Positions 4,124 to 35,327 of a stretch of DNA of 38,640 bases are shown here, piece after piece. The stretch lies in assembly GCA_019751915.1 (NCBI GenBank), contig JAIEMS010000016.1, forward strand, positions 1 through 38,640, given 5' to 3'. The notes under the pieces are model-generated. The model had not been told where the DNA came from and did no database searches. It worked only from the letters and a program-made list of their open reading frames with translations. Within the stretch, counting starts at the first letter, position 1; each line of letters starts with the position of its first letter. Source of the stretch: Burkholderiaceae bacterium. GTDB taxonomy: Bacteria > Pseudomonadota > Gammaproteobacteria > Burkholderiales > Burkholderiaceae_C. Position numbers and translations under genes: made by a program.

Positions 4124-4142
4124 GGGGGTTGTTGCTTGGTTG

Positions 4143-4193
4143 TAAAAATGAGAGCTGTCAGCGCTTTGATAGCAAGCACTGCGGGCCAAAAGT
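4143..4193 (+). repeat. Two-hairpin intergenic repeat, copy 1
   Basis: Contains AGCGCTTTGATAGCAAGCACT (second hairpin) preceded by a degenerate first hairpin and followed by GGGCCAAAA, the shared tail of the family. It lies in the leader of the J-domain gene. A GCACTGCGGGC word is repeated just after it (about 4175 and 4199). Confidence 0.6.
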
Positions 4194-5362: not shown

Positions 5363-5422
5363 GGGCCAAAAGTGCCAATAGCCCTTGGACAGAAAGCATT
5401 TTTAGCTATCAATTAAATAGCA
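5363..5422 (-). repeat. Two-hairpin intergenic repeat, copy 2
   Basis: GGGCCAAAAGTGCC, then AGCCCTTGGACAGAAAGCA and TTTTTAGCTATCAATTAAATAGC: the family read in reverse orientation. It fills the gap between the ABC ATPase gene and uppP and could stop transcription from the former. Confidence 0.75.
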
Positions 5423-8015: not shown

Positions 8016-8024
8016 GGTGAATGC

Positions 8025-8078
8025 TTCAAAAATGATAGCTATTGGCGCAGACAGCATAGGTGCAATCGGCCCAAATCA
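8025..8078 (+). repeat. Two-hairpin intergenic repeat, copy 3
   Basis: AAAAATGATAGCTATTGGCG, then AGCATAGGTGCAATCGGCCCAAAT. A degenerate copy that lies between the divergent hydrolase and lipase genes, in the region that should hold their promoters. Confidence 0.5.
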
Positions 8079-9344: not shown

Positions 9345-9423
9345 CAAAACAGCTATCAAAAAGATAGCTGCCAGTGCTTTCTGGACAAGGGCTAGTGACC
9401 CATTGAGGGCATTTTTTGCCCCA
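9345..9423 (+). repeat. Two-hairpin intergenic repeat, copy 4 (most complete)
   Basis: AGCTATCAAAAAGATAGCT (9351-9369) forms hairpin 1; AGTGCTTTCTGGACAAGGGCT (9373-9393) forms hairpin 2; then a tail with AGGGCATTTTTTGCCC. It lies between the convergent lipase and trpS ends and may end transcripts from both sides. Confidence 0.85.
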
Positions 9424-15068: not shown

Positions 15069-15120
15069 TTTCTAGCTATCAAATGGATAGCTAGAAATGC
15101 TTCATGGCTGCTGGCTTGAC
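15069..15120 (+). repeat. Two-hairpin intergenic repeat, copy 5, with long first hairpin
   Basis: TTTCTAGCTATC (15069-15080), loop AAATG, GATAGCTAGAAA (15086-15097): 12-bp perfect arms, then a diverged ATGCTTCATGGCTGCTGG part. It starts 7 bases after the chemoreceptor stop and probably helps end that transcript. Confidence 0.8.
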
Positions 15121-15148
15121 TGGAATTAGGATGTTTTTTTAGTTGAAT

Positions 15149-15220: not shown

Positions 15221-15296
15221 GGGACGTTAGCTCAGTTGGTAGAGCAGCGGACTTTTAATCCGTTTGTCGTGGGTTCGACCCCCGCACGTCCCACCA
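15221..15296 (+). tRNA. tRNA-Lys (anticodon TTT)
   Basis: A 76-base cloverleaf with encoded CCA. Acceptor stem GGGACGT pairs with ACGTCCC (15286-15292); D-arm AGCTCAGTTGGTAGAGC; anticodon loop CTTTTAA with TTT at 15254-15256; T-arm GGGTTCGACCCC pattern. Discriminator A15293, CCA 15294-15296. Single-gene transcript with its own promoter and terminator. Confidence 0.98.
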
Positions 15297-15477: not shown

Positions 15478-15690
15478 CGTGTTGTAAAGCATCTGCCAGC
15501 GCCAGCCGTTGTGCTGTCCTGTGCTGGAGCCACCATCAGCCCCGATCAAATTCTTCGGCAAGCCGACGCTGCCATGTACGAGGCCAAAGAAAAGCATGTC
15601 TCTTGGCACAGGCCCCAGCGTGCCATTTGTCACAAAATAATGGTAAAAAGTGCCCGTAGCCCTTTGATATCTAGCCTCATAAGCTATTGA
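15478..15690 (+). pseudogene. C-terminal remnant of a GGDEF domain
   Basis: In the frame of position 15481 the sequence reads VVLSCAGATISPDQILRQAD, then AAMYEAKEKHVSWHRPQ. This is the end of a GGDEF domain (SxG strand, then DxLLRxADxAMYxAKE). The frame is blocked just upstream by TGA (15466) and TAA (15472), and neither the GGDEF motif nor any N-terminal domain is present, so it is a decayed gene tail. Its present TGA stop (15688-15690) lies inside a repeat copy that has landed in or next to it. Between the tRNA terminator and this remnant (15355-15477) I see nothing else. Confidence 0.65.
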
Positions 15691-15699
15691 ATAGATAGC
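15645..15699 (-). repeat. Two-hairpin intergenic repeat, copy 6
   Basis: AAAAAGTGCCCGTAGCCCTT, then ATAAGCTATTGAATAGATAGC; reverse orientation. It overlaps the tail of the GGDEF remnant and precedes the APH/AAA gene by about 20 bases. Confidence 0.7.
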
Positions 15700-15720
15700 A
15701 AATAACCCAAGGTGACCACC

Positions 15721-19198: not shown

Positions 19199-19235
19199 AA
19201 ATTCTCCTTCCTTTTTAACCCACCGACCCTACGCC

Positions 19236-20822
19236 ATGAACGCACTCCTTTCTGTTTCTGACAAAACCGGCATCGTCGAATTTGCCCAAGCACTGCACGC
19301 GCTGGGCATCAAGCTGCTCTCGACCGGCGGCACCGCTAAATTGTTGGCCGAGCACGGCCTGCCCGTGACCGAAGTGGCTGAAGTCACGCAGTTTCCGGAA
19401 ATGCTCGATGGCCGCGTCAAAACGCTGCACCCCAAAGTCCACGGTGGCCTGTTGGCCCGGCGCGACCTGCCAGCCCACATGGCAGCGCTGCAAACGCATG
19501 GCATCGACACCATCGACCTGTTGGTCGTCAACCTCTACCCCTTTGAAGCGACGGTGCTCAAGCCCGGCTGTACGCTGGCCGATGCCATCGAAAACATCGA
19601 CATCGGTGGCCCCGCTATGGTGCGCAGCGCTGCCAAAAATTGGGCCGATGTGGGCGTGCTGACCGATGCCAGCCAATACCCCGCTGTGCTGGCAGAACTC
19701 CAAGCCGACGGCAAGTTGTCCGATGCGTTGCGCTTTGGTTTGGCCGTGGCCGCATTCAACCGTATTGCTGCCTACGATGGCGCAATTGGCGACTACCTGT
19801 CGGCGATCCATTTTGAAGCCGACAAACTCTCCGACAGCTATGTGCCCGAGCGTGTGCTGTTCCCTAGCCAAGGCAACATGCACGCCACCAAGCTGCAAGA
19901 CCTGCGCTATGGCGAAAACAGCCACCAGCAAGCGGCCTTGTATTGCGACCCACAACCTCTGCCCGGCTCGCTGGTCACAGGGGTGCAGTTGCAAGGCAAA
20001 GAGCTGTCTTACAACAACATTGCCGATGCCGATGCCGCTTGGGAATGCGTCAAGAGCTTTGACTCGCCCGCTTGCGTCATCGTCAAGCACGCCAACCCTT
20101 GCGGCGTGGCCGTGGGTGGCGACGCACTGGAGTGCTACAGCAAGGCCTTCAAAACCGATCCGACCAGCGCCTTTGGCGGCATCATTGCCTTTAACCGCCC
20201 TGTCGATGGTGCAGCCGCTTTGGCAGTGTCCAAGCAGTTTGTCGAAGTGCTGATGGCTCCGGCCTTTACCGCCGAAGCGCTGGAAATTTTCCGTAGCAAA
20301 GTCAATGTGCGCTTGCTGCAAATTGCCCTGCCCGACAACTACCACTTGGCGCGCAACGCCATCGAGATCAAGCGCGTCGGTTCGGGCCTGCTGGTGCAAA
20401 CTGCCGACAACCACGAACTGGCTCTGGCCGACCTGAAGGTCGTCACTATCAAGCAACCCAGCCCTGAAGAACTGCAAGACCTGCTGTTTGCCTGGAAGGT
20501 TGCTAAATACGTCAAGAGCAATGCCATCGTCTTTTGCAAGGGCGGCATGACCATGGGTGTCGGTGCAGGCCAAATGAGCCGCCTCGATTCGGCCCGCATT
20601 GCCAGCATCAAAGCCCAGCACGCCAGCCTGTCTTTGGCGGGCACCGCTGTCGCTAGCGATGCCTTCTTCCCCTTCCGCGACGGCTTGGATGTGGTGGTCG
20701 ATGCGGGCGCGACCTGTGTTATCCAGCCCGGCGGCTCGATGCGCGACCAAGAGGTGATTGACGCTGCCAATGAGCGCGGCGTAGCCATGGTGTTTAGCGG
20801 TGTGCGCCACTTCCGTCATTGA
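19236..20822 (+). CDS. purH: Bifunctional AICAR transformylase / IMP cyclohydrolase
   Basis: A 528-residue enzyme for the last two steps of IMP synthesis. The N-terminal MGS-like cyclohydrolase domain starts [19 protein letters not shown] and includes [11 protein letters not shown] and [14 protein letters not shown]; the C-terminal formyltransferase domain holds [28 protein letters not shown] with the catalytic Lys-His, and [16 protein letters not shown]. The length is normal and all motifs are intact. The ATG at 19236 starts the first conserved strand; an upstream in-frame start at 19176 lies within fis and is rejected. Probably co-transcribed with dusB-fis (37-base gap), and followed by a strong terminator. 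Confidence 0.97.
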
Positions 20823-20850
20823 GATGGCCGCCTGCGCCCTTGTCTGACAG

Positions 20851-20873
20851 AAGCGACCTTCGGGTCGCTTTTT
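20851..20873 (+). terminator. Intrinsic terminator after purH
   Basis: AAGCGACC-TTCG-GGTCGCTT and a T-run (20869-20873). Eight base pairs capped by a UUCG tetraloop, 28 bases after the purH stop. Confidence 0.92.
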
Positions 20874-20907
20874 CATTGCCAGAGCCATGGGACGCAGGTT
20901 TTTCGGA

Positions 20908-20969
20908 TAAAAATGGCATTAGCGCTTATGCGGTAACGATTTTTAGCTATTGTTTTAGGAGCTAAAAAC
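20908..20969 (-). repeat. Two-hairpin intergenic repeat, copy 7
   Basis: AAAAATGGCATTAGCGCTTA, then TTTTTAGCTATTGTTTTAGG and AGCTAAAAAC. Reverse orientation, between the purH terminator and the GGDEF gene. Confidence 0.7.
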
Positions 20970-21028: not shown

Positions 21029-23467
21029 ATGCAGTTGCATATTTTCACGCTCTTTGTTGTTGTCATTGTTGTCAGCGCCTTGCTGGCAGGTGCGATTGCG
21101 CTGGTGGCTTACCGCCGTAAAAACGAGTTGTTTATCTGGTCTGGTGCACTGGTGCTGCACACGGCTACATACGTTCTGTTCGGTTTGCGCGGTGTAGTGC
21201 CCGACTTTGTCTCGGTGGTTGTTGCCAATACCTTGTTGGCGACCACGCTGGCGCTGTTTGCTGTGGGCGTTTTTCGCTTTCAGCGCCGGCCTGTGCCCCA
21301 GCGCTGGATTTGGGGGCCAGCGCTGGCGTTGTTTATCGTGTTGCCGTTCATTTACAACGACATCCGAACGCGCACCCTGTTCAATAGCCCGGTTTTTGTT
21401 TTTGAATGTCTGCTGTGCTTGGTCGCCTTGTGGCAGCGCAGGAGGCAAACTCCGGGGCGGGGACAATACTTGCTGATGACCAGTGTGGTGTTTACCACCC
21501 TGACCTTGGCGGTGCGCTGGGCGGCGGTGGGTATGGGCCTGATCTCGATACAGACGCTGACCGACAGCAATACGATCCAATCGGTCACCTTTTTGTCGTC
21601 CGTGATCAGCGTGGTGCTGATGTCGTTTGGTGTGGTGATGATGGACAAAGAGCGCACCGAAGATGCTTTGCTCGAAAGCAAGCGCCATGGCATTTTTCGC
21701 AGCCAGATTTTGGCGATGTTGGCCAATGCCGAGCCGCAGTCCGAAGTGCTCACAGCGATTGTCCAAGGTGTCGAAACACTGCACCCACGCATGCTGTGCA
21801 GCTTGTTGCTGTTAAGTGAAGATGGGCACCATCTGGGGCGGGGGATTGCCCCCAGCCTGCCCGATTTTTACAACCAAGCCATTGAAGGGTTGGCGATTGG
21901 CCCGGGTGTCGGGTCGTGCGGCACAGCGGCCTTCAGCGGCGAGCGTGTGGTGGTCGAGGACATCGCCAGCCACCCCTATTGGGCACCTTTTAAAGCGTTG
22001 GCCGCGCGCGCCGGACTGGGCGCTTGCTGGTCGCAGCCCATTCACTCATCGACCCACCAAGTGTTGGGCACCTTTGCCATTTACCACCACCAATTTCATG
22101 CGCCAGAGCCTAGCGACATTGCCCTGATTGAGGAAGCCGCCCACCTTGCCAGCATTGCCATTGAGCACAGCACCGCTGCCGAAAAATTGCGCGCCAGCGA
22201 AGCCCACTACCGCACCCTGATCGAGAACCTGACCGAGATAGTGTGGCGACAAAGCACCCAGCACTGCGTGACCTACATCAGTTTGGCCGATGAGCACCTG
22301 CGCGGCTTCAAAGCCGAAGAAGTGATTGGGCGGCCTTGGTGGGACACCATGACCGAAGAGGGTGCCGCCATCGTCCGCGCCGCTATGGAGCACCAGCAGC
22401 CGCGCTGCACCACGCAAATGCGCTGCAAAGACGGCAGCACCCTCTGGGTTGAGGTGACCATCTCGCCCGAGCTAGATGCCCAAGGCAACGTTGTGGGTTA
22501 CCAAGGCGTTGGCCGCGATGTCACCCAGCGGGTACAGATACAGCGCCGCCTCCAAGAAAGCGAAGAGCGCTACCGCCTGCTCGTGACGCAGGCCAACGAG
22601 GGCATATCGGTGGTGCAAGACGGTCAATTGTGTTTTGCCAACCCCAAGCTGCTGGAGTTGGTCGGCTACAACCTCCAAGAAGTCAAGGCCAAGCCCTTTG
22701 GACAATTTGTTCACCCTGACGACCGGGCCTTGGTGCAAGAAAACTACCAAAGACGCTTGGACGGTGTGTTGAACCTGCGTTACCAAATACGTTTGCTGAC
22801 ACGCCACCGAGGGATGCGTTGGTTTGAAATCAACGGGGTGCGCATTGAGTGGCAAGGCAAGCCCGCAGCGCTGGCCTTTATGACCGATGTGACCGAACGG
22901 CGGCAGATGGAACAAGAAATTTGGCAACTGGCCTACCACGATGCCCTGACCAAATTGCCCAACCGCCGCCTCCTGAGCGAACGCCTGCAAAGCGAGATGA
23001 CCCGGCAAAAACGCAATGCAATGCACGGCGCATTGCTGTTTTTGGATTTGGACAATTTCAAGCCTCTGAACGATCAGCACGGCCACAAGGTCGGCGATTT
23101 GCTGCTGATCGAAGTCGCCCAGCGCCTGACGCACTGCGTGCGCGAGATGGACACCGTGGCCCGTTTTGGTGGCGATGAATTTGTCGTCATGCTGTGCGCT
23201 TTGAGCAGCGATCCAGCCCAAGCCCAAGAACAAGCCCGCAACGTCGGCCAAAAGGTGCTGCAAGCGTTGTCTGCGCCTTACGCCTTGACGGTGTGCAGCC
23301 TAACGCAAACCCCCAGCGTGGTCGAACACCGCTGCTCGGCCAGCATTGGTGTGTTGGTGTTTCAGGGCGATACGTGCAGCGAAGAAGACCTCATCAAGCG
23401 GGCCGATATTGCCATGTACCAAGCCAAAGAGTCGGGGCGCAATGCCCTGTGCATCGCCAGCGCATAA
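21029..23467 (+). CDS. Membrane diguanylate cyclase with GAF and two PAS domains
   Basis: An 812-residue signalling protein. Residues 1-205 contain about seven hydrophobic segments (a 7TM-like sensor of unknown ligand); a GAF domain follows (about 220-370), then two PAS/PAC units (about 375-500 and 505-630; SEERYRLLVTQANEGISVVQ begins the second) and a GGDEF domain (about 635-805). The active-site motif GGDEF is intact (714-718), preceded by REMD five residues upstream, the RxxD inhibitory site. So the protein should make c-di-GMP and be feedback-inhibited. No EAL domain. Two decayed GGDEF tails in the window (77-157, 15478-15690) are not copies of this C-terminus by eye. Start ATG at 21029; monocistronic. 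Confidence 0.92.
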   Translation: MQLHIFTLFVVVIVVSALLAGAIALVAYRRKNELFIWSGALVLHTATYVLFGLRGVVPDFVSVVVANTLLATTLALFAVGVFRFQRRPVPQRWIWGPALALFIVLPFIYNDIRTRTLFNSPVFVFECLLCLVALWQRRRQTPGRGQYLLMTSVVFTTLTLAVRWAAVGMGLISIQTLTDSNTIQSVTFLSSVISVVLMSFGVVMMDKERTEDALLESKRHGIFRSQILAMLANAEPQSEVLTAIVQGVETLHPRMLCSLLLLSEDGHHLGRGIAPSLPDFYNQAIEGLAIGPGVGSCGTAAFSGERVVVEDIASHPYWAPFKALAARAGLGACWSQPIHSSTHQVLGTFAIYHHQFHAPEPSDIALIEEAAHLASIAIEHSTAAEKLRASEAHYRTLIENLTEIVWRQSTQHCVTYISLADEHLRGFKAEEVIGRPWWDTMTEEGAAIVRAAMEHQQPRCTTQMRCKDGSTLWVEVTISPELDAQGNVVGYQGVGRDVTQRVQIQRRLQESEERYRLLVTQANEGISVVQDGQLCFANPKLLELVGYNLQEVKAKPFGQFVHPDDRALVQENYQRRLDGVLNLRYQIRLLTRHRGMRWFEINGVRIEWQGKPAALAFMTDVTERRQMEQEIWQLAYHDALTKLPNRRLLSERLQSEMTRQKRNAMHGALLFLDLDNFKPLNDQHGHKVGDLLLIEVAQRLTHCVREMDTVARFGGDEFVVMLCALSSDPAQAQEQARNVGQKVLQALSAPYALTVCSLTQTPSVVEHRCSASIGVLVFQGDTCSEEDLIKRADIAMYQAKESGRNALCIASA

Positions 23468-24820: not shown

Positions 24821-24877
24821 ATCAAAATGACCAGTAGCCCTTGCTCCATCAGCATTTTTAGCTATTGATTAAGTAGC
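24821..24877 (-). repeat. Two-hairpin intergenic repeat, copy 8, overlapping a gene end
   Basis: CAAAATGACCAGTAGCCCTT, then CAGCATTTTTAGCTATTGATT and AAGTAGC. It fills the space between convergent genes and contains the stop codon (24869-24871) of the monooxygenase gene. Confidence 0.75.
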
Positions 24878-26083
24878 AGAAAATTCAGCCGCCAAACCGT
24901 CGCCCCGGTACAACCAAGGCACATCCAACAAGCGTTCACCCAGCAAGCGCAAAGACAGGTCGCGCCCCCAGCGCAGCGGGCCGGTGGCATGAAAAATTTG
25001 CCCATTGCGCTCGGAGCGCGCTTGCACCCGTGCGTTGCGCCGCCAGCGGTTGAGCGCATAGCGGCGCAGGCGCAGTGTCAGCTCAATGTCGTGCATCGCC
25101 AACGATTGCTGCAACTGCGCTGCGTCTTCGATGGCCATGCCCGCGCCCTGCGCCAAGTAGGGGCGCATGGGGTGGGCTGCATCGCCCAGCAGCGCCACCA
25201 GCCCTTGGGCCATTTGCTCGGCGCTGCTGACGGGCGGACGGTCTGACAGCGGCCACAGCCGCCAGCCTTGGCCCGCTGTGGGCACTGCACGCACCAAGTC
25301 TTGCAGAGCCGGGCAAGTGCCCCGCAAGGCTTGCTCCAAATCGGCGGCGTTGGCGGCGTGGTTCCAGTTTTGTAAATCGGCAGGGGCTGGGCCTTGCACA
25401 ATCACCACCAAGTTTTGTAACTCACCGCAGCGCACCGGGTATTGAATAGCGTGCAAACGCGGCCCCAGCCAAGCGGTCACTTGGGTGCTGCGCAGAGCGC
25501 TGGGCAAGGCATTTTGGAGGGCCAAGGCGCGGTAGGCCAAATGGTCGCTGGTGCGCGGTGGGCCGTCGGCCAGCAGCTGGGTGCGGATGCGGCTCCACAG
25601 CCCGTCTGCACCAATGAGCACATCGCCCTCGACCTCTTGACCGGCACTGGTGCGAATCAACACCGCCCCAGACTCTTGCCGGTGCTGTTCGACGGTTTGC
25701 CCCAAGTTTAGTTGCACATCGGCCTGCTCTTGCACCGCCGCCAGCAGCAAGCCTTGCAAATCGGCCCGGTGGATGGTGACGTAGGGTGCGCCATAGCGCT
25801 GCACCGCCCGCTCTGCCAGTGGCAACACGGCCAACGTGCGTCCCGATACGGCGCAGCGCACCTGCAATTGCGTCGGGAACGCCACCACAGACTCCAGTGC
25901 CGATTGCAGCCCCCAGCGGTGCAAATGGCGCACCACGTTCGGCCCCAATTGCACCCCCGCACCCACCTCGCTCAACAGCCCTTGGCGTTCATATAGCCGC
26001 ACATCGCAGCCCGCCTGCGCTGCTGCCAGTGCCGCAGCCAAACCACCGATGCCGCCACCGGCAATCAACACTTGTTTTTTCAT
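24869..26083 (-). CDS. FAD-dependent aromatic monooxygenase (UbiH/salicylate hydroxylase type)
   Basis: A 404-residue flavoprotein hydroxylase. The FAD motif IAGGGIGGLAAALAAAQAG is at residues 7-25; the middle GDVLIGADGLWSRIR matches the DG motif that binds NAD(P)H and FAD; the GD motif is LVALLGDAAHPMRPYLAQGAG (with the usual HPMxPxxAQG). This points to a class A hydroxylase of salicylate, 3-hydroxybenzoate or a similar ring acid; the substrate is not certain. ATG at 26083. It follows acnA by 24 bases on the same strand and may be transcribed with it. Its last four residues and TAA stop lie within repeat copy 8, so the C-terminus has been reset by the repeat. Confidence 0.85.
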   Translation of the reverse strand: MKKQVLIAGGGIGGLAAALAAAQAGCDVRLYERQGLLSEVGAGVQLGPNVVRHLHRWGLQSALESVVAFPTQLQVRCAVSGRTLAVLPLAERAVQRYGAPYVTIHRADLQGLLLAAVQEQADVQLNLGQTVEQHRQESGAVLIRTSAGQEVEGDVLIGADGLWSRIRTQLLADGPPRTSDHLAYRALALQNALPSALRSTQVTAWLGPRLHAIQYPVRCGELQNLVVIVQGPAPADLQNWNHAANAADLEQALRGTCPALQDLVRAVPTAGQGWRLWPLSDRPPVSSAEQMAQGLVALLGDAAHPMRPYLAQGAGMAIEDAAQLQQSLAMHDIELTLRLRRYALNRWRRNARVQARSERNGQIFHATGPLRWGRDLSLRLLGERLLDVPWLYRGDGLAAEFSAT

Positions 26084-26107: not shown

Positions 26108-28933
26108 TTAAGCGTCCAGCAATTGGTGCAGCACGTAGGGCAAGATGCCACCGGCGCGGTAGTAATCGACCTCGATGGGGGTGTCGATGCGCAGCGTCAC
26201 AGAGACCACCTTTTGGGAGCCGTCGGCACGGTGGATGACCAAAACGGCCTCGCTTTGGGGTGTCAGGGCCGGATTGGCCAGCATATCAATCGACTCCTCG
26301 CCGGTCAGCTCCAAGCTTTGCCACGAGTCCGAACCGCGAAATTGCAGCGGCAGCACGCCCATGCCGACCAAATTGGAGCGGTGAATGCGCTCAAAGCTGC
26401 GCGCAATCACAGCCTTGATGCCCAGCAATTGGGTGCCCTTGGCAGCCCAGTCGCGGCTCGAGCCGGTGCCGTACTCCTCGCCAGCAAATACCACCGTAGG
26501 TATGCCCTGTGCCAAATACTGCTGCGCTGCATCAAAGATGAACATCTTCTCGTTTTGTAACGGGCCATCGTGCTGGAACAGCGTGATGCCACCTTCTTCG
26601 CGCGAGCCATCTTCCAGCGGGGGCAGCATCCTATTTTGGATGCGGACATTGGCAAAGGTGCCCCGCACCATGACCTCGTGGTGGCCTCGGCGTGCGCCGT
26701 AGCTGTTGAAGTCGGCGGGGGCCACGCCTTGGGCTTGCAGCCACTGGCCTGCGGGCGAGGTGGCAGGGATGGAGCCAGCGGGCGAGATGTGGTCGGTGGT
26801 GATCGAGTCGCCCAGCAGGGCCATGACACGGGCATTTTTGACCGTTCCAAGGGCTTTTTGCTCGCTAGCGCTTGCCACGCAATCTTTATATGCTATGTTT
26901 TTCATAGCAAAATCGGCGAAAAATGGTGGCTTGGCAATGTAGCTGCTGGTCGGCCAAGTGTAGGTACTGCCGGTGACGCTGGTGATTTTTTGCCACAGCT
27001 TGCCCGGTTTAGACCGAACCTTGGCGTAGTTTTTGCGAAAGGCCTTGCCTTGCATCGCAAACTTCATCAGTTGGTCGATTTCTTCGCTGCTGGGCCAAAT
27101 ATCGCCCAAATAGATATTGCGGCCCTTCTTGTCTTGGCCCACGGGCTGGGTCATCAGATCGGTCAGCACGGTACCGGCAATCGCGTAAGCCACCACCAAC
27201 GGCGGGCTGGCTAAAAAGTTGGCCTTGAGGTTGGGGTGGATGCGCGCCTCAAAATTGCGGTTGCCCGAAAGCACCGCAGCGCAAACCACATCGTTTTGCG
27301 TGATGGCCGCATTCAGGGCGGGGGTTAAGTCACCCGCATTGCCAATGCAGGTGGTGCAGCCATAACCGACCAAGGAGAAGCCGAGTTTTTCGAGGTAGGG
27401 TAAAAGGCCGGTTTCGCGCAGGTACTGGGTGACGATGCGCGAACCGGGGGCCAGCGAAGTTTTGATGTGTGGCTTGACCCGCAACCCCGCCTTGACCGCC
27501 TTTTTTGCCAGCAAACCAGCGGCCAGCAGCACGCTGGGGTTAGAGGTATTGGTGCAACTGGTGATGGCGGCCATCAGCACATCGCCATGGCCCAGTGTTA
27601 AAGCGTCGTCTGTGCTGCTGGGCATGCTCACATTGGTGGAGCCAGCGTTTTGGCTGGCGACCCGGTGGCGCTGCAACAAGCTGCCAGCGTTTTGGCCGAA
27701 ACCGTTGTCTGTCGCTGGCTGGCTGAACAACTGGGAAAACTGGTGGGCCACTTGGCCCAACTCGATGCGATCTTGGGGACGCTTGGGGCCAGCCACGCTG
27801 GGCGTGACGCTGCCCAAATCGAGCGAGACCACTTGCGAATAATCGATATCTCCGTCCAGCGGCACCCCAAACAGCTCTTGTGCACGAAAGTAGGCCTCGA
27901 AGGTCTCGATGTCGGCTTTACTGCGTCCTGTGCCCTTAAAGTAGCTGATTGTTTTCTCATCGACCGGGAAAAACCCCATCGTGGCCCCATATTCGGGTGC
28001 CATGTTGGCGATGGTGGCCCGGTCGGGCAGGGTCAAACGGCGTGTGCCTTCACCAAAAAACTCGACAAATTTGCCGACCACCTTGTGCTGGCGCAACAGC
28101 TCCGTCACGGTCAGTACCAAGTCGGTGGCCGTTACTCCGCCGCGCAACTGGCCTGTGAGCTGCACGCCCACCACATCGGGCGTGAGCAAATACACCGGCT
28201 GGCCGAGCATGGCGGCTTCGGCTTCGATACCACCGACCCCCCAACCGACGACACCCATACCGTTAATCATGGTGGTGTGGCTGTCGGTACCGACCAAGGT
28301 ATCAGGGTAATAAATACGGCCTTTGGATTTGTGAACACCACGGGCCAGATATTCAAGATTGACCTGATGGACAATGCCAAACCCCGGTGGTACAACACCG
28401 AAGGTGTCAAATGCCTGCATGCCCCATTTCATGAATTCGTAGCGCTCGCGGTTGCGCTGGAATTCGAGCTGCATATTCAGGTCAAATGAATCTTTTTGGC
28501 CGTAATGATCGACCATGACCGAATGATCAATCACTAAATCAACCGGTACCAGAGGTTCTATTTTTTCTGGGTTTTTGCCCCACTGTTGGGCTACTGTTCG
28601 CATTGCTGCCAAGTCGGCCAGCAGTGGAACACCGGTAAAGTCTTGCAATACTACGCGTGAAACCACAAAGGGAATTTCGGCATTGCGGGCAGCTTGTGGT
28701 TGCCATTGGGCCAGTTGTGCCACATGCTCAGGCAGTATTTTCTTGCCGTCACAATGGCGCAGTACCGATTCGAGCACAATGCGAATCGACATCGGCAGGC
28801 GCTTTACCGATGGAAATTGCTTTGCCAGTGCGGGAAGTGAATAAAAACGGCCTTCTTTACCCGATGCTGTCTTAAACTTCTGCAGTGTTTTGGAAAAAGC
28901 GTGGCGCGCGGCGCTGTGGGATGACGAGGCCAT
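26108..28933 (-). CDS. acnA: Aconitate hydratase A with a repeat-encoded insert
   Basis: A 941-residue aconitase (citrate to isocitrate, TCA cycle). The [4Fe-4S] cysteines are Cys460 ([10 protein letters not shown]), Cys526 and Cys529 ([10 protein letters not shown]); [19 protein letters not shown] (217-235) and [18 protein letters not shown] (706-723) are typical. It is longer than E. coli AcnA (891). Part of the extra length, residues 674-695 ([20 protein letters not shown]...), is encoded by an in-frame copy of the intergenic two-hairpin repeat. The insert lies in the linker before the C-terminal swivelling domain, a place likely to tolerate it. ATG 28933 has AAGGA (28941-28945) 7 bases upstream; the longer in-frame start at 29032 would include a hairpin region and is rejected. 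Confidence 0.95.
26851..26913 (-). repeat. Two-hairpin repeat, copy 9, inside the acnA coding sequence
   Basis: On the acnA strand: TTTTGCTATGAAAAACATAG, CA, then GCGTGGCAAGCGCTAGCG and AGCAAAAAGCCC. GCTATG/CATAGC forms hairpin 1; the AAGCGCTAG and CAAAAAGCCC tail matches intergenic copies. It is in frame and encodes about 21 residues. Confidence 0.75.
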
Positions 28934-33183: not shown

Positions 33184-33250
33184 TATCTATTTAAACTTTT
33201 TGATAGCAACAAAAGCTTGTGGTGCTTGGGCTATAGGCTATTTTGATGGT
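33184..33250 (+). repeat. Two-hairpin intergenic repeat, copy 10, overlapping a gene end
   Basis: CTATTTAAACTTTTTGATAG (hairpin 1 region), then AGCTTGTGGTGCTTGGGCT and a TATTTTGATGG tail. It contains the stop codon (33231-33233) of the TetR gene and its last codons. Confidence 0.65.
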
Positions 33251-33908
33251 TTTTTATGGCTGAAATGCTGTTTCCAGCCTTATGTGCTTGTGCGTGCAAA
33301 CCCAAACCAGTCAAATAGATATCGACGGCAGCTTGGCCGGTATGCACCAAATCAAAAGCACTTTGGTCCACTAACCATTGGTGCACCAGCCCCTCGATCA
33401 GCACTTGCAGGCCAATGGCAGCAGTATCGAGTGCCACTGGCAGCGATTGCCCTGATTCTTGCGCCGCCCGTGCCAGCGCCAGTCGGTTGTGAGCGACGCA
33501 TTGGCCGTGGACGCGCAAGCGCCGTTCTTGCACGGCCCCGAGTTCGTCGGTGAATTCCACTTTGTGCGTGGCAATTTGCAGTACCCGGCGCGTTTGGGCA
33601 TCGTTGGCAATCAGGTGCAGTGCGCTCAACAAAGCGGTACGCAGTTCGGCCAGCGTGTTGCTGCCCGGCGCTTGGCTAGCTTGGGCATGGGCACTTTCCA
33701 ACGGCAAAGTCACGCGCTCCATCATGGCGTTGAACAGGTCGGCCTTGTCCTTGAAATGCCAATAAATCGCCCCGCGCGTGGTGCCTGCAGCGACGGCAAT
33801 GTCGTTGAGCGAGGTGCGCGATACCCCCTGCGCCTCGAACAATTGCTCGGCCGCATCCAGCAACGCACTGCGCGTAGCTTGGGCATCGGCTTTGGTGCGA
33901 CGAGCCAT
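33231..33908 (-). CDS. TetR/AcrR-family repressor of the efflux operon
   Basis: A 225-residue regulator. Helix-turn-helix (about 10-58): ALLDAAEQLFEAQGVSRTSL, NDIAVAAGTTRGAIYWHFKD, the AcrR/TtgR-type signature. The ligand-binding half is variable, as expected for a multidrug sensor. It is divergent from the RND adaptor gene, and the palindrome at 33953-33974 lies between them, so it should repress both itself and the pump until a toxic ligand binds. ATG 33908 begins the conserved N-terminus (MARRTKADA); the longer in-frame start at 34058 would run through the operator and is rejected. Its last residues lie in repeat copy 10. Confidence 0.92.
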   Translation of the reverse strand: MARRTKADAQATRSALLDAAEQLFEAQGVSRTSLNDIAVAAGTTRGAIYWHFKDKADLFNAMMERVTLPLESAHAQASQAPGSNTLAELRTALLSALHLIANDAQTRRVLQIATHKVEFTDELGAVQERRLRVHGQCVAHNRLALARAAQESGQSLPVALDTAAIGLQVLIEGLVHQWLVDQSAFDLVHTGQAAVDIYLTGLGLHAQAHKAGNSISAIKNHQNSL

Positions 33909-33952
33909 GGCATTGACCTCCAAAAAATGCTGTGTAATGCGGCGACTATACA

Positions 33953-33974
33953 ACATACATTCAAGGATGTATGT
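33953..33974. promoter_or_regulatory. AcrR-type operator
   Basis: ACATACAT-N6 (TCAAGG)-ATGTATGT: perfect 8-bp arms. The E. coli AcrR operator has the same arms (TACATACAT and ATGTATGTA) around a 6-base spacer, from memory. It sits midway between the divergent repressor and adaptor genes, 45 bases from the repressor start; a TATACA at 33947-33952 next to it could be the adaptor -10. Confidence 0.8.
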
Positions 33975-34040
33975 ATGATGCCGGTATTCCAATGCTTCAC
34001 CCATCGGGTCTGTTGCCCGATCCTTTCCCAAAGGAACACC

Positions 34041-35327
34041 ATGCCTGCCTTGCGCCATGCTGAGACTGCTTTTGCTTTTCCCCTCACCCCTGTTCGACCC
34101 GCGCGCGCACCCATGCGCTGGGGCATTGCCATGGGGGGGCTATCGGCGGCTTTGCTGTTGCTAGGGTGTGGCGCTGGTGATGCGCCTGCGGGTGCTGCTG
34201 CCGCTGGGGGCAGACCGCCACCGCAAGTGGGCGTGGTTACAGTGGCTTTGGGTGATGTGGGCTTGGTGACGGAGCTGCCGGGCCGCCTTGAGGCCTCGCG
34301 GGTGGCGCAGGTGCGGGCCAGAGCCACTGGCATTTTGCAAAAGCGCTTGTTCCGTGAGGGCAGCGATGTCAAAGCAGGTCAGGCGTTGTTTGCCATTGAT
34401 CCCGCACCCTACGTGGCGGCCCAGCAAACAGCCAATGCCCAGCTAGCACGGGCACAGGCCAATTTGTCGCAGGCAGCGGCGCTGGCCGAACGCTACCAGC
34501 CGCTGGTCGATGCCAACGCCATCAGCCAGCAAGAGTACGCCAACGCTGTGGCTGCCCACAAGCAGGCCCAAGCCGATGTGGCCGCAGGCAATGCGGCGGT
34601 GCAAACGGCCAGCATCAACCTGAACTACGCCAGCGTCACGGCCCCGATCTCTGGGCGCATTGGCCGGGCGCTGGTGACCGAGGGCGCACTGGTGAGCCAA
34701 ACCGAAGCGACCCCGCTGGCGGTGGTGCAGCAAATCAACCCGATGTATGTCAATTTCACCCAATCGGCCGACGAGGTGATGAAGCTGCGCCGGGCCATGG
34801 AAGCGGGTCAATTCAAACGCGCTTCGGGGGCCGAGGCCGCCAGCGTGCGCGTGTTGCTCGAAGATGGCAGCGAATACGCCCACCCCGGCAAGCTGTTGTT
34901 TTCTGACCTGACGGTCGATGCCAGCACCGGCCAAGTCACGCTGCGTGCTGAAGTGCCCAACCCCAAAGGCGAGTTGTTGCCCGGCCTGTATGTGCGGGTG
35001 CAACTGGAACAAGCCCAAGTCGGCAACGCCATCACCCTGCCGCAACAGGCCGTCACACGCACCCAGCAGGGTGACAAGGTGATGCTGGTCGATGCGCAGG
35101 GGAAAATCAGCCCGCGCATGGTCAAAATTGGCGCGGCACGCAACCAGCAATGGGTGGTGCTCGAGGGCCTGAAGGCGGGCGATCAGGTGATGGTCGATGG
35201 TTTTCAAAAACTGCAAATGATGCCGCCCGGCGCACCCGTGAAGGCCGTGCCGTGGCAAGCGCCGGGCAGCGCTCCTGCCCCTGCTGCCTCGGCAGCGACA
35301 GCGCCTGCCAGCGCAGCCCGTCCGTAA
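34041..35327 (+). CDS. RND efflux periplasmic adaptor (AcrA/MexA type)
   Basis: A 428-residue membrane-fusion protein that links the inner-membrane pump to an outer-membrane channel. It has a signal segment ending in lipobox LLGC (about residue 41), so it is a lipoprotein anchored in the inner membrane. Then come the lipoyl half-motif (VRARATGILQKRLFREGSDV), a coiled-coil hairpin (about 105-160, NAQLARAQANLSQAAALAER), the second half-motif (NYASVTAPISGRIGRALVTE), and beta-barrel and membrane-proximal domains. The C-terminus is Ala/Pro-rich. ATG at 34041 has AAGGA (34031-34035) 5 bases upstream. First gene of the efflux operon; its stop is 10 bases before the pump gene. Confidence 0.93.
   Translation: MPALRHAETAFAFPLTPVRPARAPMRWGIAMGGLSAALLLLGCGAGDAPAGAAAAGGRPPPQVGVVTVALGDVGLVTELPGRLEASRVAQVRARATGILQKRLFREGSDVKAGQALFAIDPAPYVAAQQTANAQLARAQANLSQAAALAERYQPLVDANAISQQEYANAVAAHKQAQADVAAGNAAVQTASINLNYASVTAPISGRIGRALVTEGALVSQTEATPLAVVQQINPMYVNFTQSADEVMKLRRAMEAGQFKRASGAEAASVRVLLEDGSEYAHPGKLLFSDLTVDASTGQVTLRAEVPNPKGELLPGLYVRVQLEQAQVGNAITLPQQAVTRTQQGDKVMLVDAQGKISPRMVKIGAARNQQWVVLEGLKAGDQVMVDGFQKLQMMPPGAPVKAVPWQAPGSAPAPAASAATAPASAARP

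Follow-up and report, generated by a model that had tools for sequence, protein, structure and literature searches.

The window analysed here, i.e., the whole stretch of 38,640 nucleotides from a Burkholderiaceae bacterium, carries on its minus strand (26108-28933) the gene acnA for an aconitate hydratase of 941 amino acids, which matches cytoplasmic aconitase 3sn2 in phmmer with an E-value of 8.5e-272. Its start is placed at 28933, and the reading frame is open upstream to 29032. Within the AcnA linker, after the PPFF block and before the last conserved block, profile matches place an in-frame copy of a two-hairpin repeat (26858-26908, minus strand), which comprises 17 codons (residues 676-692); its translation is predicted from the reading frame. 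The first hairpin (GCTATG AAAAA CATAGC) was read directly at 26892-26908 (minus strand), where the covariance model of the repeat matches with its positions 2-18 (E 0.19). Concerning the second hairpin, the 5' arm is decayed and one clean arm is left, namely the 3' arm AAGCGCT, read from the sequence at 26867-26873 (minus strand). On the acnA strand, GCTATGAAAAACATAGC is followed 18 nt later by AAGCGCTAGCGAGCAAAAA.

A profile of six intergenic copies of the window, from which the acnA copy was excluded, hits 26862-26912 on the minus strand (E 0.0015, 14.0 bits), and matches in relatives reach 9.4e-10, which confirms the recognisable repeat copy that a sequence-only reading had reported on the acnA strand. 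The reading frame given there also held. The copy spans residues 676-692, and the net gain at the insert site relative to the 3sn2 chain is 13 residues. In the window, the copy is a poor match (clean broad profile described below, E 0.053; the covariance model detects the first hairpin alone), and the case therefore rests on the matches of relatives at the same AcnA codons. A structure model of AcnA has a pLDDT below 50 at residues 670-695 and a mean pLDDT of 70.9; as the model is mediocre, we draw on it solely for the low order of this segment.

The repeat is around 55 nt long and consists of two hairpins, with the consensus TGCTATTAAAAAAATAGCTGCCAGCGCTTGCCCAGCAAGCGCTAGAGGCCATTTT (iterated profile, 37 matches). 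The clean profile was obtained by iterating the six-copy window profile over 871 kb, after masking all 99 acnA linkers and removing duplicate loci (37 training matches), and the covariance model was built on 33 copies that include no acnA insert. G+C content is 35-47% in the five best covariance-model matches of the window. Pairing covariation (score 0.128 vs 0.106 in shuffled alignments, equalled by 24 of 500 shuffles) adds no clear support for the pairing beyond sequence conservation. At the gathering score, the sole match of Rfam 15 in the window is a tRNA, and the repeat falls into no Rfam family.

The five best covariance-model copies of the window are situated at 9351-9405 (plus strand, E 5.9e-15) and 15646-15700 (minus strand, E 4.8e-10), both intergenic, at 5368-5422 (minus strand, E 1.2e-14), probably intergenic, at 24824-24878 (minus strand, E 3.1e-13), between genes and extending 10 nt into the 3' end of the ORF at 24869-26083 (minus strand), and at 20909-20963 (minus strand, E 1.7e-10), between the ORFs at 19215-20888 (minus strand) and 21029-23467 (plus strand). 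The last of these is also open in a 303-aa frame, largely antisense to the ORF at 21029-23467, which is probably not a gene. Degenerate copies, all on the plus strand, are situated at 4138-4192 (E 9.4e-5; probably between genes), 8022-8076 (E 2.8e-4), 15074-15140 (E 0.0042) and 33194-33244 (E 0.017; overlapping the 3' end of the minus-strand ORF at 33231-34058). The copy at 8022 is open in the frame of a longer ORF, but was ruled out as a second protein-embedded copy, since it precedes the likely lipoprotein start (MYKTIPQ...). A tRNA gene at 15221-15293 is flanked by the copies at 15074-15140 and 15646-15700.

The linker in related aconitases

In an alignment of 99 AcnA sequences (near-copies: L021/L105, L030/L111 and L018/L095), the stretch from PPFF to ARI is either long (32-44 aa, n=53) or short (23-31 aa, n=46). 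The clean profile matches 36 of the 53 long linkers, 23 of them with E <= 0.01 and the best with 9.4e-10, but none of the 46 short linkers at E <= 10, which supports the earlier view that the insert derives from the repeat. All 36 matches are in sense orientation and in a single register; those in L101, L102, L104 and L108 span the second hairpin only. The insert is found at the same codons in records of Acidovorax, Giesbergeria, Simplicispira, Rhodoferax and Ottowia, and weak matches (E 0.39 to 3.5) are present in records of Polaromonas and Xylophilus.

Whether the same residues also occur in genomes free of the repeat, as the sequence-only reading had asked, was evaluated in 49 of 80 named genomes, for which repeat counts range from 0 to at least 116. 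The linker matches in none of the 21 genomes with at most 10 copies and in 13 of the 28 with more, an outcome that does not refute the origin from the repeat; the corresponding Fisher p of 1.7e-4 is optimistic because the genomes are related. At least 116 copies exist in many records of Acidovorax, Polaromonas and Rhodoferax as well as in Ottowia, whereas the count is zero or near zero in the searched records of Hydrogenophaga, Variovorax, Rubrivivax and Ideonella and in most of those of Ramlibacter. Within the genus of the window, the covariance model gives at least 150 matches in 23 of 26 genomes, and 2, 6 and 5 in the remaining three. These three repeat-poor genomes (G001, G016 and G022) are also without an AcnA of the window type: at E <= 1e-100, two of them yielded none and G001 only a relative of 45% identity. 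A further genome, G023, likewise lacks such an AcnA match, yet bears the repeat.

AcnA possesses a second variable linker at around residues 413-449 (window 27587-27697, minus strand), where many Comamonadaceae carry extra GC-rich residues that are absent from the window protein; the repeat profile has no match there at a meaningful E-value. That AcnA gains such unrelated inserts, together with the weakness of the window copy, the poor order of the linker in the structure model and the 17 of 53 long linkers without a profile match, would fit an ordinary variable linker that resembles the repeat by chance or convergence. However, the match at the same codons was obtained with acnA linkers masked in training, it separates long from short linkers, and it is lacking in all repeat-poor genomes. 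Furthermore, the codons of the insert are AT-rich and those of the second linker are not, mean third-codon G+C in these genes being 0.42 for the 53 long-linker inserts and 0.84 for the second linker. On the third-codon G+C and the clean-profile results, chance likeness was rejected, and we regard it as extremely improbable.

On an acnA tree built from columns outside the linker (the partial rows L081, L094 and L095 were left out), the side containing Rubrivivax, Ideonella, Roseateles and one Variovorax has short linkers in all of its 27 rows. The other, mostly Comamonadaceae side comprises 69 rows, of which 33 carry the repeat, 17 are otherwise long and 19 are short (the 33 repeat rows were picked with an earlier profile, and all match the clean one too). 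A clade of 33 rows reaching from Acidovorax to Simplicispira exhibits the long linker throughout. Overall, the label long or short requires 10 changes on the tree, and several rows of Polaromonas, Hydrogenophaga and Ramlibacter are without the insert. Four Polaromonas rows (L031 and L036-L038) possess a short linker (AAGGQKDAVSV and similar) with a third-codon G+C of 0.73-0.87, which looks like a shortened, GC-adapted remnant and suggests loss after an old gain.

The AcnA linker is thus homologous to the repeat, with shared register and place, and a single old insertion behind all copies is supported but not proven. Many independent, recent insertions into the same linker, with young copies that match the current variant of their genome, would account for the patchy distribution on the tree as well as for the AT-rich codons and the genome-specific variants of the embedded copies (see below). 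They are unlikely, however, given the one orientation and register in every match, the long linker in each row of the Acidovorax-Simplicispira clade, and the apparent remnants in Polaromonas.

Copies in other genes and proteins

The sequence-only reading had reported the insert in the aconitase of this genome; the case is real and extends further, to other genera and to other proteins. The clean profile finds, in 400 kb of genome G006, 51 copies (around 128 per Mb), of which 37 are intergenic, 4 lie at gene edges and 10 inside genes, with around 84% of the sequence called coding by a home-made gene finder run on these 400 kb. Six of the in-gene copies are sense and four antisense (E 7.1e-10 to 0.0048). 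Frames and orientation in this genome were taken from the earlier profile, in which 4 of 42 training matches were acnA inserts. According to these counts, five of the six sense in-gene copies use the acnA frame (that in-gene copies are stop-free is a consequence of the gene-calling method), 19 of 38 intergenic copies are stop-free in that frame, and the two orientations occur 15 vs 13 and 7 vs 19 times in two 200-kb segments.

With a profile of the insert peptide (E <= 10), each of the 23 repeat-rich genomes has 32-120 matches and each of the three repeat-poor ones has 3-4; as translated intergenic copies are included, these counts reflect the abundance of the repeat no less than the number of copies in proteins. 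Forty candidates in long stop-free frames were chosen among the matches listed and are not a random sample; 25 of these ORFs were scanned against NCBIfam or Pfam, and the rest were assigned by eye as orthologues. By NCBIfam or Pfam matches, the copy is internal to penicillin-binding protein 1C (PbpC), sigma-54 RpoN, YgiQ, the formate dehydrogenase alpha subunit, aminopeptidase N (PepN), UvrA, a FemAB-like protein, an AroA-cytidylate kinase fusion, a biotin carboxylase/carboxyltransferase and an ABC-F protein, and in several of these it falls between two matched domains. In Era, LolD, CysN and NtrB it is situated near the N terminus, where the true start is less sure. For lolD (candidates L276 and L308; locus G006:C2:3074450-3075190), an ATG within the repeat (GCTATGAAT) may be the start codon.

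Alignments to PDB chains reveal a net gain at the insert site in PepN and in AroA, where the insert overlaps a native SYFLAAAAI-like stretch. LeuS (L294) is a weak example, its loop being replaced and not lengthened. Six candidates without a Pfam match (L271, L275, L279, L280, L284 and L287) were taken as chance frames, L291 was discarded since the copy is positioned before the likely start of Mpl, and L270 has weak family matches only.

Codon make-up and genome-specific variants

The insert is the strictly lowest of around 910 windows of 17 codons in third-codon G+C in 36 of the 53 genes with a long linker; the acnA of the window itself is an exception, with 86 windows equally low. Among 30 inserts picked by DNA profile (an earlier version; all match the clean one), alanine codon 1 is GCT in 29 of 29 cases vs 8.9% gene-wide, and glycine codon 5 is GGA in 13 of 13 vs 2.8%. 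This selection favours repeat-like codons, and the effect is weaker in the unselected 53 inserts. Third-base conservation over the 17 sites tracks that of the intergenic copies, both in acnA (rho 0.72) and in the other proteins (rho 0.77), the copies of which were found by amino-acid search, such that third bases were not directly selected.

Two results on pairwise identity weigh against the explanation preferred below. Identity among acnA inserts (0.62, 210 pairs) does not exceed that of inserts taken from different genes and different genomes (0.644); for the 17 strongest acnA copies, it is 0.72 among themselves and 0.68 to those in other proteins. Inserts of the same genome show only a small excess (0.671 vs 0.649 shuffled, p 0.0085).

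The second arm of the repeat occurs in three forms (AAGCGCT, GGGCGCT and AAGGGCT), which are represented differently among genomes: whole-genome counts are, in this order, 202, 3 and 0 in G003, 22, 9 and 153 in G014, and 78, 73 and 4 in G017, with at most one match of the reversed control pattern per genome and strand. In the genome of the window (G000), at least 150 covariance-model matches exist, yet the three core forms number just 8, 1 and 2. Since model matches are many and core forms few, it probably holds a diverged subfamily, represented by ATAGCTAAAAAT in three window copies.

Allowing one mismatch, a form could be assigned to 57 of 58 embedded copies (20 in acnA and 37 in other proteins). 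These forms fit the counts of their own genome to a degree that was reached by none of 5000 within-gene label shuffles for all 57 copies, by none of 5000 for the acnA copies alone, and by 2 of 5000 for the other proteins. A misfit is seen in G005, the genome of which is rich in AAGGGCT and the acnA copy of which carries GGGCGCT. The genomes are related and the acnA variants cluster in a few clades, such that the number of changes behind the test is small, perhaps four to six as estimated by eye. For recent insertions, a fit to the variant of the genome is expected; as the long acnA linker is common to the whole clade, the fit there suggests replacement or co-selection, and it is a sign of concerted evolution between coding and intergenic copies.

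Where AAGGGCT repeats prevail, AGC is changed to AGG in the acnA frame, which replaces serine by arginine; this change is not explained by base composition, since the transversion leaves G+C unchanged. It bears on the view that the insert is a functional peptide, e.g., a docking or regulatory segment, which is kept by selection on the protein and owes its DNA likeness merely to ancestry. Such a peptide would be consistent with the retention across genera and with the invariance of A1, A6 and A9, and near invariance of A14, in 22 inserts (chosen for repeat likeness). We nevertheless consider it distinctly unlikely, because third bases show the conservation pattern of intergenic copies, with codons rare elsewhere in the gene, linkers and N termini of unrelated proteins contain the same peptide, several rows of Polaromonas, Hydrogenophaga and Ramlibacter do without it, and the serine position follows the genomic repeat. 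As to the alternative of a DNA-level process behind the concert, by which amino-acid changes in AcnA, PbpC, the FemAB-like protein and other core proteins would be driven by a selfish or structural repeat and not by the protein, we put its chances at slightly short of even.

Relation to known palindromic repeats

The repeat is short (55 nt), palindromic with two hairpins, present in many copies and mainly intergenic, i.e., a REP in the broad sense. Neither GTAG nor CGTC is present at the ends of the 55-nt consensus, which may differ from the true ends of the element, and the repeat as delimited here thus lacks the mark of the GTAG/CGTC REP superfamily. A protein similar to Y1 transposases is encoded in 21 of the 26 genomes of the genus (L187-L189, L191-L201; frames of 234-268 aa, one of 373). 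At 30 Y1 loci among the 42 matches listed, several of which end at contig ends, none has the repeat on both sides, and no Y1 gene flanked by inverted copies, as in REPs or REPINs with a RAYT, was found. The repeat resembles REPs in its size, its hairpins, its copy number and its presence inside genes, which would suit a GTAG/CGTC REP mobilised by a RAYT transposase of its own and maintained at the DNA level by transposition alone. In addition to the deviating ends, however, the Y1 loci are not enriched in the repeat (the 30 loci, around 90 kb, contain 8 match rows or 7 distinct copies, confined to 6 loci, where around 12 copies are predicted from the density in G006), and we hold this origin to be improbable.

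Concerning copies inside proteins, the sequence-only reading had named Rickettsia as the known case, which is correct, but they are also described beyond that genus. Rickettsia palindromic elements (RPEs) are known both from intergenic positions and, in frame, from within conserved proteins (PMC2229807), and the same combination is found here, with one repeat both intergenic and in frame within unrelated conserved proteins. Compared by description only, RPEs are 105-146 bp long in Rickettsia, whereas the present repeat is around 55 nt long and resides in free-living Comamonadaceae, where several genera have one insertion in common and there are signs of upkeep at the DNA level. Intragenic GTAG/CGTC REPs, likewise short palindromic repeats inside ORFs, are described from Thauera, O. 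terrae, Xanthomonas and S. maltophilia; over half are dimers or groups encoding 20-30 aa, uvrA and tRNA synthetases are among the genes concerned, and those of one gene category lie at different sites except in recB of two Xanthomonas species (PMC3733652). The Comamonadaceae repeat differs from them by the missing GTAG or CGTC end, and the main text of that publication contains no occurrence of Acidovorax, Polaromonas, Burkholder or betaproteobact.

Beta-proteobacterial repeat elements (BREs) are repeated in Comamonadaceae and other groups, with some copies wholly within coding sequences; they have 75-91 bp and 63.7-78.9% G+C in Bordetella and a maximum of 29 copies, in Polaromonas JS666 (PMC3110155). 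Compared by description only, the present repeat has 55 nt, 35-47% G+C and at least 150 matches in 23 of 26 genomes, and is unlikely to be identical to BRE. Small non-autonomous MITEs with open frames (ERIC/RU-1; Correia, 107 bp) are also reported as fused in frame to genes (PMC2229807); MITEs have around 100-200 bp and mostly terminal inverted repeats, whereas the Comamonadaceae repeat consists of two separate short hairpins. A further paper considered as a precedent (PMC2755013) proved to be a false lead, the palindromic repeats in the part seen being CRISPR. The open-licence literature yielded no description of the repeat or of its position in AcnA, in agreement with the sequence-only reading, which knew of none. 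In-frame palindromic repeats in proteins are thus known already from Rickettsia and several other bacteria; as far as our searches reach, the repeat family itself, the old insertion common to several genera and the sign of concert between coding and intergenic copies are new.

Taken jointly, a REP-like repeat that spread in Comamonadaceae, an early in-frame insertion into AcnA and a copy then held near its DNA consensus form the explanation that we prefer, with a probability of roughly 85%. A non-autonomous, two-hairpin element would have reached high copy number in Comamonadaceae and, early in this family, would have inserted once in sense orientation into the flexible linker preceding the last block of AcnA. 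The frame in which it landed would be one of those in which the element is often stop-free, and around 20 residues would have been added, presumably tolerated because the linker is a surface tether; later losses and decay would account for the remainder of the distribution. As long as the repeat family is abundant in the genome, the embedded copy would be held near the DNA consensus and follow the variant of that genome; once this holding ends, it would decay, take on the G+C content of the genome, or shorten. The likeliest holding force would be a DNA-level process that acts on all copies alike and not a need for the peptide; candidate processes are replacement or conversion from the pool of copies, or a trans-acting factor that selects sites.

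The host family of the repeat consists of water and soil bacteria. Since the repeats are numerous and sister genomes have different variants, the question of overwriting of coding copies from the pool vs their selection as DNA sites is directly testable here. The findings suggest that a repeat can enter core enzymes of free-living bacteria, persist across genera and keep shaping their sequence. They also caution that the conservation of a linker peptide across genera may have reasons other than its use to the protein.
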